Origin: Agromyces sp. S2-1-8 | Lineage (GTDB): Bacteria; Actinomycetota; Actinomycetes; Actinomycetales; Microbacteriaceae | DNA: 64,000 bases | Assembly (NCBI RefSeq): GCF_021129215.1 | Contig: NZ_JAJOLP010000001.1 | Span: forward strand, 3,596,001 to 3,660,000 | Direction of reading: 5' to 3' | In this document: one piece after another, positions 8,483-11,554 of the stretch | Layout: every line of letters begins with the position of its first letter | How positions within the stretch are numbered: the stretch's first letter is position 1 | The notes under the pieces: model-generated | What the model was told of the DNA's origin: nothing | Databases searched by the model: none | What the model saw: only the letters and a program-made list of their open reading frames with translations | Program-made: the position numbers and the translations under genes

Positions 8483-8652
8483 TGGCCTCGATTCGCTGAG
8501 GCCTCCCGAGCTCGTCGGGAGTGCGCCCTGCCGGCTTCACCCGCCTGGGCGCCGGTGCCGCGGAGACTCCGCGTAGATCCCGCACGCGGGGTTAGCCGGT
8601 CCCCCGCATGGACTCCGGTCCCGCGTACGGGCATTGCCGATCCCGCGTGCGG

Positions 8653-8750
8653 GCGCCGGTCCGTCGCGTGGGAATCGTCGATCCCTCCCTTCAGCGCCGG
8701 CCCGTCGCGTGGGAATCGTCGATCCGTCCCTTGAACGCCGGTCCGTCGCG
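8653..8750. repeat. 41-bp direct repeat, 2.4 copies
   Basis: Units 8653-8693 and 8694-8734 differ at only a few positions, followed by a partial third copy. Each begins GCGCCGGYCCGTCGCGTGGG. The head of the unit resembles the 19-bp family that follows, suggesting one grew from the other. Confidence 0.8.
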
Positions 8751-8753
8751 TGG

Positions 8754-8867
8754 GGCGCCGGTTCCACGCGTCGGCGCCGGTTCCACGCGTCGGCATCGGT
8801 TCCACGCGTCGGCGCCGGTTCCACGCGTCGGCATCGGTTCCACGCGTCGGCGTCGGTTCCACGCGTC
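8754..8867. repeat. 19-bp tandem repeat, 6 copies
   Basis: Six consecutive units begin at 8754, 8773, 8792, 8811, 8830 and 8849. The unit is GGCRYCGGTTCCACGCGTC, varying only in the RY dinucleotide. A degenerate seventh unit follows at 8868, and looser relatives (CCGATCCCGCGTGCGGGCG) precede from about 8600. Confidence 0.9.
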
Positions 8868-8904
8868 GGCGTCGATCCTGCGTGGACATCGCTCCGGGGA
8901 ACGA

Positions 8905-9024
8905 GGACACAAGTCCACAACTCCACACCCCTGCAGGACACAAGTCCACAACTCCACACCCCTGCAGGACACAAGTCCACAACTCCACACCCCTGCAGGA
9001 CACAAGTCCACAACTCCACACGTC
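8905..9024. repeat. 31-bp tandem repeat, about 3.8 identical copies
   Basis: Units 8905-8935, 8936-8966 and 8967-8997 are identical, and a fourth begins at 8998 and diverges after CTCCACAC. The core is CACAAGTCCACAACTCCACA followed by CCCCTGCAGGA. A near-identical core with the same 31-bp period occurs at 41207-41299. Confidence 0.95.
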
Positions 9025-9067
9025 TTCCCAATGAGGCCCCGCCACCTGGCGGGCCAGCGAGGAGCGA

Positions 9068-9151
9068 GGAACGACCACCGCGGAACGCGGAACGACCACC
9101 GCGGAACGCGGAACGACCACCGCGGAACGCGGAACGACCAGCGCGGAACGA
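9068..9151. repeat. 21-bp tandem repeat, 4 copies
   Basis: Units begin at 9068, 9089, 9110 and 9131. The consensus is GGAACGACCACCGCGGAACG plus C; the fourth unit has two changes and leads into the 14-bp array, with which it shares GGAACGACCA. Confidence 0.9.
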
Positions 9152-9156
9152 GCAGG

Positions 9157-9268
9157 GAGGAACGACCAGGGAGGAACGACCAGGGAGGAACGACCAGGGA
9201 GGAACGACCAGGGAGGAACGACCAGGGAGGAACGACCAGGGAGGAACGACCAGGGAGGAACGACCAGC
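9157..9268. repeat. 14-bp tandem repeat, 8 copies
   Basis: Eight perfect or near-perfect copies of GAGGAACGACCAGG run from 9157 to 9268, the last ending in GC. A 14-bp period is not a multiple of 3, so it does not reflect a protein repeat. Confidence 0.95.
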
Positions 9269-9373
9269 GATAAGCGCCGAGTGAGGAGCGTGTCGCGAGG
9301 AGCGCGCCGCGCCTCGCTCCTGAGCTCGAGCTCTCCTGAGCTCGAGAGCCGAGGAGCAAGTGGATTCTCTCCG

Positions 9374-9395
9374 CCGAGAGCAGCACTGCTCTCGG
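9374..9395. promoter_or_regulatory. Perfect 10-bp hairpin upstream of clpP
   Basis: CCGAGAGCAG (9374-9383) and CTGCTCTCGG (9386-9395) are perfect complements separated by CA. It lies 45 bp before the clpP start and just after GAGCTCGAG-rich palindromes. It could be an operator for the PopR/ClgR-like protein nearby or a terminator for anything crossing the repeats; it does not obviously match the published ClgR box. Confidence 0.45.
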
Positions 9396-9439
9396 CAGCA
9401 TCCGCCCCACCGTGCGCCGACGCCGCGCAGGCTGGGTTC

Positions 9440-10060
9440 ATGAGCGAACAGACCCCGGCGATCCAGCCGATCGACGCCGAGCTCACCGCCCGGCTCTTCC
9501 ATGAACGCATCATCGTGCTCGGCGACGAGCTCGACCAGCAGGGCGGCAACCGCCTCTGCGCGCAGCTCGTCACCCTCGCCGGCGACGACCCCCGCCGCGA
9601 CATCCGGTTCTGGATCAACTCGCCCGGGGGCTCGGTGTCGGCCATGCTGGCGATCTCCGACCTCATGCGCTCGATCCCGAACGACGTCGCGACGATCGCG
9701 TACGGCATCGCGGCGAGCGCCGGCCAGTTCCTGCTGAGCGCCGGTACCCCGGGCAAGCGCTTCGCCCTGCCGCATGCGCGCATCCTCATGCACCAGGGCT
9801 CGGCCGGCATCGGCGGCACGGCGGTCGACGTCGAGCTGCAGGCCGACGAGCTGCGGTACACCCGGGACACCGTGCTCGGCATCACCGCGGAGAACACCGG
9901 CCAGCCCATCGCGAAGATCGCCGAGGACTCGCTGCGCGACCGCTGGTACACGGCCGACGAGGCGGTCGACTACGGCTTCATCGACCGCGTCGTCGACGGC
10001 TTCGACGAGATGTTCCCGAGGGCTGTGCGGCCCCAGACCGGATTGCGAGTGCCCGCATGA
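9440..10060 (+). CDS. clpP: ATP-dependent Clp protease proteolytic subunit (active-type ClpP)
   Basis: Predicted 206 residues, the normal ClpP length. The catalytic triad can be placed: Ser in AYGIAASAGQF (about residue 98), His in ARILMHQGS (about 123) and Asp in LRDRWYTADEA (about 172). The N-terminal LTARLFHERIIVLGDEL and INSPGGSV blocks are canonical. ClpP forms the heptameric chamber fed by ClpX/ClpC. ATG 9440 is preceded at 6 bases by CAGGCT, a weak form of the leaderless -10 seen elsewhere. The next ClpP-like gene overlaps it by 4 bp (ATGA), so the subunits are translationally coupled. This is an accessory copy by context: there is no clpX or tig beside it. Confidence 0.9.
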   Translation: MSEQTPAIQPIDAELTARLFHERIIVLGDELDQQGGNRLCAQLVTLAGDDPRRDIRFWINSPGGSVSAMLAISDLMRSIPNDVATIAYGIAASAGQFLLSAGTPGKRFALPHARILMHQGSAGIGGTAVDVELQADELRYTRDTVLGITAENTGQPIAKIAEDSLRDRWYTADEAVDYGFIDRVVDGFDEMFPRAVRPQTGLRVPA

Positions 10061-10686
10061 CCAGCTACACGATCCCCTACGTCGTCGAACGTCGGGGCAA
10101 CAGCGAGCGCTCGCTCGACGTCTACAGCCGCCTGCTCTCTGAGCGCATCGTCTACCTCGGCACCGAGATCGACGACGGCGTCGCGAACGTGCTCATCGCG
10201 CAGTTCCTGCACCTCGCGTCGGAGTCGAACGACACCCCGATCAGCCTCTACCTCAACTCCCCCGGCGGTTCGCCCGGCGCGGCGCTCGCGGTCTACGACA
10301 CGATGCAGCACATCCGGCCGGATGTCGCGACGACGTGCGTCGGCCAGGCGGGCGGACCGGCGGCGGTGCTGCTCGCCGGCGGGGCGAAGGGGCAGCGTGC
10401 GATCCTGCCGCACGGCCGGGTCGTGCTGCACCAGCCCTCGACGCAGGGCCGCGGCACGATCCCCGACCTCATCATCCACGCCGACGAGGTCGTGCGAGTG
10501 CGCGCCGAGCTCGAGGCGGCCCTCGCCGCCGACACCGGGCACGACGTGGCGACCCTGCGGCACGACACCGACCGCGACCTCATCCTGCCCGCGGCGGCGG
10601 CCGTCGAGTACGGGCTCGCCGACCACGTGCTGACGGCACGGGTGCCGGTCGGCGCCGGCGCGGCCGCCTACGCGGCGAGCAGGTAG
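10057..10686 (+). CDS. ClpP-family paralogue lacking the catalytic serine
   Basis: The 209 residues show full ClpP homology (SLDVYSRLLSERIVYLGTEI, LYLNSPGGS, VVLHQPS, HDTDRDLILPAAAAVEYGLADHVL). However, the nucleophile block that should read GQAASM is GQAGGPAAVLLAGG near residue 100: the codons are GGC GGA CCG, so Ser is replaced by Gly. His and Asp of the triad remain. The protein should therefore be proteolytically dead or regulatory, comparable in principle to cyanobacterial/plastid ClpR. It overlaps the active clpP by 4 bp, suggesting a fixed-ratio mixed complex. It converges with the HTH regulator gene, the two stops overlapping by 19 bp. Confidence 0.9.
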   Translation: MTSYTIPYVVERRGNSERSLDVYSRLLSERIVYLGTEIDDGVANVLIAQFLHLASESNDTPISLYLNSPGGSPGAALAVYDTMQHIRPDVATTCVGQAGGPAAVLLAGGAKGQRAILPHGRVVLHQPSTQGRGTIPDLIIHADEVVRVRAELEAALAADTGHDVATLRHDTDRDLILPAAAAVEYGLADHVLTARVPVGAGAAAYAASR

Positions 10687-11150
10687 ACGCCGCCGCGCGG
10701 CGCGGCGACGGTCGCGCCGCCGTCGGCGATCGCGCCCGAGGCCTCGTCGAGGTCGAGCACCAGCACGGTGCCGACGTCGACGGCGGGATGCCTCGCCGGC
10801 GCGTCGGCGCGGAACGCGAGCGCGCGCTCGTGGTCGAGGCGCTCGCGCCGCTCGGCCTCCAGCCGTTCGGCCTCGTGGCGGGCGCCGAGCACCTCGCCCA
10901 CCCGGTGCGCGACCTCGAAGAGCTCGAGCCCGAGCGCCTCGGCGACGGCGCCGAGCACCTCGCTCGACGGCTCTTTGCGGCCGCGCTCGATCTCGGAGAG
11001 ATACTGCGGTGAGACGCCGGCCGAGGCCGCCACCTCGGTGAGGATCCGCTCCTGGGCGAGCCGCTCGCCTCGCAGCACCTCGCCGAGCACGTCGCGCCAG
11101 AGCGGCTTCGACCTGCGCGGGACCGTTGGGAACTCGACGACCTTGCCCAT
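10668..11150 (-). CDS. XRE-type regulator, PopR/ClgR-like (clp gene regulator)
   Basis: The 160 residues carry an XRE helix-turn-helix (about residues 20-75): LGEVLRGERLAQERILTEVA, then SAGVSPQYLSEIERGRKEPSSEVLGAVAEALGLELFEV. This is very like ClgR/PopR, the actinobacterial activators of clpP genes that are themselves Clp substrates. The C-terminal half has a charged helix and ends in VYLLAA; a hydrophobic Ala-Ala tail is the kind of degron by which ClgR/PopR are fed to ClpP. ATG 11150 has TAGCCT (11157-11162) exactly 6 bases upstream (leaderless). The head-to-tail convergence with the clpP pair supports regulation of that pair. Confidence 0.8.
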   Translation of the reverse strand: MGKVVEFPTVPRRSKPLWRDVLGEVLRGERLAQERILTEVAASAGVSPQYLSEIERGRKEPSSEVLGAVAEALGLELFEVAHRVGEVLGARHEAERLEAERRERLDHERALAFRADAPARHPAVDVGTVLVLDLDEASGAIADGGATVAAPRGGVYLLAA

Positions 11151-11204
11151 GCCCCGAGGCTAACCGCGGCCGGTACGCGACGACAGGGCGATCCGCTCAC
11201 AGCA

Positions 11205-11240
11205 GAACGGGCCGCTCCGCATGCGCGGAACGGCCCGTTC
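11205..11240 (-). terminator. Hairpin terminator after the DUF1540 gene
   Basis: GAACGGGCCGCTCCGC (11205-11220) pairs with GCGGAACGGCCCGTTC (11225-11240) with one mismatch and loop ATGC. It lies just downstream of the minus-strand gene ending at 11252 and separates it from the regulator gene starting at 11150. Confidence 0.8.
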
Positions 11241-11251
11241 GGCAGGTGGTC

Positions 11252-11554
11252 TCAGGCGACTTCGTAGGTGAGGCAGTCGGCGTCGTCGTGGCCGGCGCCG
11301 ATGCGCACTGCGGCTGCGGTGCATTCGAGCTTCGAGTTGTGGATGCACTCCGAGCGCTGGCATGCTCCGACGTGCGTGAGCACCTTGTCGAGCCCGCCCT
11401 TGGAGCCGAGCGGGATGAAGGTGACGCACTCGGCGTCGCCGGGCGAGCCGGCGATCGTGACGGCTGCCGCGTGGCAGTGCGAGTGGTCGTTGTAGGAGCA
11501 ACCGGCCACCGAACACTCGGCGACCGCGGGCATCTCGTCGAGCGTCATGCTCAT
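11252..11554 (-). CDS. DUF1540 domain protein, two Cys-rich repeats
   Basis: Predicted 100 residues. Two DUF1540 repeats are visible: AECSVAGCSYNDHSHCHAAA...DAECVTF (about 12-45) and GACQRSECIHNSKLECTAAA...DADCLTY (about 62-97). The spacing of Cys and His suggests a small metal-binding fold; no function is established for the family. Start 11554 has a perfect AGGAGG (complement of 11560-11565) 5 bases upstream; a second ATG 6 bases further in is possible. A partial iron-box-like sequence lies about 110 bp upstream. Confidence 0.85.
   Translation of the reverse strand: MSMTLDEMPAVAECSVAGCSYNDHSHCHAAAVTIAGSPGDAECVTFIPLGSKGGLDKVLTHVGACQRSECIHNSKLECTAAAVRIGAGHDDADCLTYEVA

Follow-up and report, generated by a model that had tools for sequence, protein, structure and literature searches.

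Analysis of a 64,000-nt stretch of DNA (G000:C1:3596001-3660000; in the following, the window), for which the nearest named relatives are Agromyces with up to 95% identity, revealed a backup locus of the clpP3-clpP4-popR kind, the second ClpP subunit of which carries glycine in place of the catalytic serine. A survey of accessory clpP pairs from actinomycetes demonstrated that such a dead partner is a frequent and recurrent property of this system. In the second subunit, called B throughout, catalytic residues are often lost and the rest of the protein is maintained. On the basis of sequence comparisons and of analogy with characterized relatives, we consider it probable that these loci encode a conditional backup Clp core, in which one ring cuts and the other docks the ATPase, and a PopR-like switch.

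The accessory clpP locus of Agromyces

The first gene of the pair, clpP A (ClpP1/ClpP3-type; positions 9440 to 10060, plus strand), presumably encodes the catalytic ring and shares an ATGA at 10057-10060 with the following clpP B (ClpP2/ClpP4-type; 10057 to 10686, plus strand). Matches to the Pfam family CLP_protease (E 3e-60 for A and 1e-59 for B) indicate that both gene products are full-length ClpPs. Sequence identity amounts to 38% between A and B and to 40-42% between these two and the genome's own housekeeping subunits. The genes for this housekeeping ClpP1P2 pair are located about 1.2 Mb away (C1:2430483-2431720), and both of its subunits possess Ser-His-Asp. A gene for a PopR/ClgR-like HTH regulator of 160 amino acids (10668 to 11150, minus strand) is convergent with B, and the 3' ends of the two genes overlap by 19 bp. 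Directly upstream of the regulator gene, a small DUF1540-domain protein is encoded (11252-11551, minus strand). The intergenic region before the clpP pair (8638-9267) harbors differing tandem arrays with units of 41, 19, 31, 21 and 14 bp, and in several of them the copies are at least 93% alike.

An initial reading of the window, made from the sequence only, had assigned a full catalytic triad to A and a nucleophile changed from Ser to Gly to B, and both assignments were confirmed by alignment. A displays Ser-His-Asp with the nucleophile motif GIAASAGQF. In the B motif GQAGGPAAV, a glycine encoded by the GGA codon at 10354 to 10356 (plus strand) occupies the position of E. coli Ser111 (Ser97 of the mature protein), and His and Asp are kept. 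The same reading had stated that the fold and the remaining residues of B are retained, which agrees with the presence of His and Asp, with the CLP_protease match and with the predicted structure of B, a ClpP fold with a mean pLDDT of 82. The best structure matches of predicted B include chains of M. tuberculosis ClpP1P2 and of E. coli ClpP, and the solved structures nearest to A include M. tuberculosis ClpP1, the best actinobacterial ones. Also, the HTH gene converging on the pair does encode the Leu-Ala-Ala end that had been described, its product terminating in GGVYLLAA.

Whether the exchange of Ser for Gly is conserved among family members had been raised as a point to check, and the outcome is twofold. 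Within the genus the glycine is conserved: an accessory pair is present in 50 of the 60 Agromyces genomes, and every accessory Agromyces pair examined carries Gly at the nucleophile position. Outside the genus it is not, as B proteins from other actinomycetes carry other states. Since Gly is found genus-wide and other substitutions occur elsewhere, a sequencing error or a strain quirk was discarded as an explanation.

The locus is assigned to the clpP3-clpP4-popR system by its gene order, its regulator and operator, its genome context and its phylogeny, so that the likeness proposed in the sequence-only reading is justified. As in S. lividans, coupled genes of P1-type and then P2-type coexist with a separate housekeeping pair, a convergent ClgR-family regulator has an Ala-Ala end, and a two-site operator with a 4-nt spacer is present. 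As in Streptomyces, B of the window belongs to the ClpP4-type branch, apart from housekeeping ClpP2. In contrast to Streptomyces ClpP4, which has lost His, B of the window has lost the nucleophile Ser. The idea that the locus differs from Streptomyces by having a dead partner as in plastid ClpR needs one refinement; the ClpR analogy fits, but the implied contrast fails because the ClpP4 triad is broken too. In the open-access literature ClpP3P4 is called a backup core, and no report of a broken ClpP4 triad was found there. The loss may, however, already be remarked on, for example in the first papers on the S. lividans system, of 2000 and 2002.

Triad states of accessory ClpP pairs across actinomycetes

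Pairs were collected from a sample made up of named genomes, 60 Agromyces genomes, 395 genomes of the class and 121 Streptomyces genomes. Removal of duplicates, of housekeeping loci and of three entries that were broken or incomplete left 230 distinct pairs. Six loci and L001 turned out to be housekeeping pairs and were taken out of the accessory set, and two apparent exceptions among A proteins were left out, L054 with a split, frameshifted gene and L067 at a contig edge. In the case of L054 (Microbacterium elymi), the frameshift-split A lies beside an intact Ser-to-Gly B, due either to an assembly error or to a real loss.

Clearly, the two subunits differ in the fate of their triads. All accessory A proteins (230/230) retain Ser-His-Asp and 53 of the 230 accessory B proteins do so, and in control housekeeping operons of the same genome set the triad is kept in 50/50 P1 and 50/50 P2. 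Among the 177 B proteins lacking the triad, the commonest states at the Ser, His and Asp positions are GHD (56), SGD (44), AHD (25), WHT (16) and GHE (8); EHN (5), EHH (5), WHD (4), SHN (4), SDD (3), SHS (2) and five singletons are rarer. Serine has been substituted by Gly, Ala, Trp, Glu or Phe, histidine by Gly, Asp or Gln, and aspartate by Thr, Asn, His, Ser or Glu. ClpP4-type proteins from Streptomyces have Gly for His in 45/45 distinct sequences (44 SGD and 1 SGE). B proteins with Asp-to-Asn or Asp-to-Glu changes may retain activity and hence the term 'dead' is safest for losses of Ser and His. The full triad in the 53 B proteins mentioned above indicates that triad loss is not required for a working system.

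L200, L202 and their relatives (group f27/g54) have Glu at the nucleophile position of B and have also lost Asp, which is unusual in a protease chamber. A plasmid search returned four records, and the B triad is broken in both that were examined; here the whole trio of genes resides on large plasmids, of Tsukamurella tyrosinosolvens (L334; B Ser-to-Ala) and of Streptomyces fungicidicus (L335; B His-to-Gly). A phage search yielded just more distant ClpPs, with less than 60% identity.

In order to count the losses, a maximum likelihood tree of B proteins was constructed with the three triad columns removed and rooted on eight housekeeping ClpP2. The split between accessory B and housekeeping ClpP2 was recovered with support values of 98/96 and 100/100. 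Unordered parsimony requires at least 8 triad changes in B, and 9 losses are obtained if regain is disallowed; some sister species differ in their state (Cellulomonas, Actinotalea) and the exact number of losses therefore depends on whether regain is allowed. Strong support was obtained for the dead clades of Streptomyces (His to Gly; 100/100), of the f27-centred sequences with loss of Asp and Ser (100/98), of Nocardia and relatives (Ser to Ala or Gly; 100/99) and of Nocardioides with His to Asp (100/97), as well as for the Nocardioides Ser-to-Trp clade with its Phe and Ala sisters (96/93). Support is weaker (82/84) for the clade of the window itself, which comprises Agromyces, Leifsonia, Gordonia and Williamsia.

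Like ClpR of cyanobacteria, plastids and apicoplasts, B is a subunit with ClpP fold but without a working triad that is paired with an active ClpP. In contrast to ClpR, the losses in B are nested among triad-intact actinobacterial sequences and look independent, which, in a tree made up of actinobacterial sequences, argues against common descent with ClpR. Also, PopR-like control and a lost docking pocket on the active partner have no stated counterpart in ClpR.

Dead B proteins are under purifying selection. The median dN/dS within dead B clades was 0.13 for those with Trp and 0.14 for those with His to Gly, followed by 0.15 for Glu, 0.19 for Ala and 0.24 for Gly in Agromyces; the active A partners from the same loci gave similar values. 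Conservation was also studied at 23 reference positions that are near-invariant in A, in housekeeping P1 and P2 and in E. coli. Among these, B proteins keep least Ser97 (47%), His122 (79%) and Asp171 (81%), and most of the other positions are kept at or near 100%, the oxyanion glycines being found in 230/230 B. Based on dN/dS and residue conservation, B was rejected as a pseudogene.

The regulator and its operator

The best NCBIfam match of the regulator is ClgR (NF041677; E 2.4e-21), although its score of 75.9 bits is below the curated cut-off of 170; a match to Pfam HTH_3 was found as well (E 2.7e-12). The ClgR profile is matched more closely by a ClgR-like gene at a different chromosomal location (101 bits). 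In 219 of the 220 loci with a match, the regulator gene is located downstream of the pair in convergent orientation. An Ala-Ala end is present in 196/220 regulators (Leu-Ala-Ala in 184), compared to 136 of 3981 control ORFs (3.4%). Some regulators, some from Agromyces among them, lack an Ala-Ala end (LVA, LAS). ClpP1P2 of S. lividans recognizes regulators of this type by their Ala-Ala ends (PMC9775585, PMC9765437). Streptomyces PopR is degraded by ClpP1P2, and clpP3/P4 are induced when ClpP1P2 fails (PMC9765437, PMC12607617).

In S. lividans, PopR activates clpP3P4 via the site TCTGCC-3N-GGCGAATCTGCC-3N-GGCAGA (PMC9775585, PMC9765437). A candidate double operator with the architecture of this published site is located upstream of A in the window, at 9372 to 9397 (plus strand), 68 nt before the start of A. 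It reads CGCCGAGAGCA-GCAC-TGCTCTCGGCA and consists of two YGCYNNNRGCR sites with a 4-nt spacer; it scores 16/16, and its spacing equals that of the published site. Across the loci, the pattern YGCYNNNRGCR-N4-YGCYNNNRGCR occurs upstream of A with a score of at least 15/16 in 182/238 cases, compared to 1.2 in dinucleotide shuffles. The pattern was framed with knowledge of Agromyces and of the published site from Streptomyces, so that its occurrence in the other families is what counts as an independent test. The simple ClgR motif (GTTCGC-5N-GCG) was rejected as the operator, being found upstream of A in just 11/240 loci. A genome-wide scan for the exact Agromyces-type operator, allowing up to 3 mismatches, gave no match. 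The genome-wide operator scan gave 11 degenerate matches without an informative control, and for both reasons no regulon is claimed.

Upstream of the regulator gene (11151-11350, minus strand), the window contains a single half-site, TGCTGTGAGCG, followed by GATC. Single 8/8 half-sites upstream of the regulator were encountered in 137/214 loci, with 38 expected, and this excess suggests, more weakly, autoregulation.

Docking features and a possible division of labor

Both the accessory pair and the housekeeping ClpP1P2 of M. tuberculosis and Streptomyces appear as asymmetric hetero-cores. In the housekeeping core ATPases dock on ClpP2, and in Streptomyces cutting is performed by ClpP1 (PMC9765437, PMC4416901). 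It is the pocket positions that decide where ATPases or ADEP dock on Streptomyces ClpP1P2; ATPases bind to ClpP2 only, and exchange of its Ser for Ala leaves full activity (PMC9765437). A proline in the N-loop, a feature associated with ATPase docking, occurs in 230/230 B and 50/50 P2 and in none of the A and P1 proteins. The N-loop of B in the window reads YTIPYVVER. As B starts directly at this loop, no propeptide is apparent; housekeeping P2, in contrast, has an N-terminal extension, and apicoplast ClpR also is without a prodomain (PMC7966870).

At the positions corresponding to E. coli 74, 76 and 96, A of the window has Arg-Trp-Ser and B has Ser-Tyr-His. With the aromatic docking pocket defined by Tyr or Phe at position 76 and Tyr, Phe, Trp or His at position 96, 100% of the B proteins and about 1% of the A proteins possess this pocket. 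Housekeeping ClpP1P2 differs from the accessory pair in that both triads are kept and most ClpP1 (92%) have the aromatic pocket that accessory A lacks. Judged from these residues, the accessory pair seems to take the division of labor known from ClpP1P2 further, with a cutter that lacks the usual pocket and a docker that often lacks the cutting site.

In the mechanism that we propose, A would form the cutting ring and B a non-cutting ring, the N-terminal loop and hydrophobic pocket of which would provide for docking of ClpX/ClpC and for substrate entry. Co-assembly of A and B is what we infer from gene coupling, the A and B frames overlapping by ATGA in 186/230 pairs, and from family precedent. 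Docking would occur through B and no catalysis would take place in it. The PopR-like regulator would activate the pair through the double operator, and its Leu-Ala-Ala end would be a degron for housekeeping ClpP1P2, which in Agromyces sp., by analogy with Streptomyces, presumably degrades the regulator. If the degron is read in this way, the pair would be silent as long as ClpP1P2 works and induced if ClpP1P2 is inhibited, overloaded or lost. As a docking ring need not cut, the B triad could be lost many times and the A triad never.

Two options had been offered at the outset for the function of the pair, a mixed chamber with altered cleavage or assembly and a decoy. Comparison of the residues favors the mixed chamber, in a form where just one of the rings cuts, and the decoy is less supported because B keeps docking loop and pocket and A has lost the pocket. 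As a decoy or dominant-negative subunit, B would join housekeeping ClpP1/ClpP2 rings or occupy the ATPases and so damp or redirect the main protease. There is precedent in S. hawaiiensis, where ClpP-ADEP disrupts complexes of ClpP1 and forms new ones with ClpP2 (PMC12607617), and with its docking pocket kept, B could titrate ATPases. However, B is translationally coupled to an always-active A, and A, having lost its own pocket, needs a docking partner. Viability of S. lividans requires at least one of clpP1/P2 and clpP3/P4 (PMC9765437), which means that the pair can replace the main core, impossible for a pure decoy. We therefore judge a decoy function to be unlikely.

Less probable still, and in our view very doubtful, is that B remains an enzyme which uses another nucleophile or residues from A or a neighbor and has an altered cleavage specificity. 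The invariant oxyanion glycines would fit such an activity, as would the His and Asp that remain in most lineages devoid of Ser. In Listeria monocytogenes ClpP1, Asn replaces Asp, so that there too one subunit of a mixed core has a non-standard triad, and this subunit is active in the hetero-complex (PMC9765437). In contrast to the Listeria case, Gly, Ala, Trp or Glu in place of Ser is not expected to be rescued by a mixed complex. Also, where Ser has given way to Gly, Ala, Trp, Glu or Phe, no shared new nucleophile is seen close by, a Trp would occupy the site, and Streptomyces B lacks the His outright. Equally improbable and mostly refuted is neutral decay of B toward a pseudogene, in which selection on a dispensable protein would have been relaxed. 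Although different lineages lose different residues as expected of an unconstrained triad, the dN/dS of dead clades (0.13-0.24) is similar to that of A, core positions outside the triad are almost fully kept (pocket and N-loop at 100%) and reading frames are open across whole genera. A relaxation confined to the catalytic residues would agree with the proposed division into a cutting and a docking ring.

Should B serve purely for docking, the ClpP2 Ser-to-Ala experiment would have been repeated in nature at least 8 times, which would demonstrate that a docking ring need not cut. This raises the question why the triad was never lost in the 50 sampled housekeeping ClpP2 and so often in accessory B. 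A more tentative extension, which we regard as possible but would not favor, is that the accessory core is reciprocally degenerate, insensitive to ADEP and equipped with fewer serine-reactive sites, and might thereby confer inducible tolerance to natural Clp-targeting antibiotics. The backup core would be ADEP-insensitive because activators of the ADEP type depend on a pocket that the cutting ring lacks. The pair offers a clean system in which to study asymmetric Clp cores and the survival of actinobacteria exposed to Clp-targeting natural products such as ADEPs and beta-lactones.

Beside the active site, Met98 is often replaced by Ala and Pro124 by Gly in accessory A proteins (numbering of mature E. 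coli ClpP). Every B with Gly, Ala, Trp or Phe instead of Ser adjoins an A of this Ala98/Gly124 type, an association that could reflect compensation or shared ancestry.
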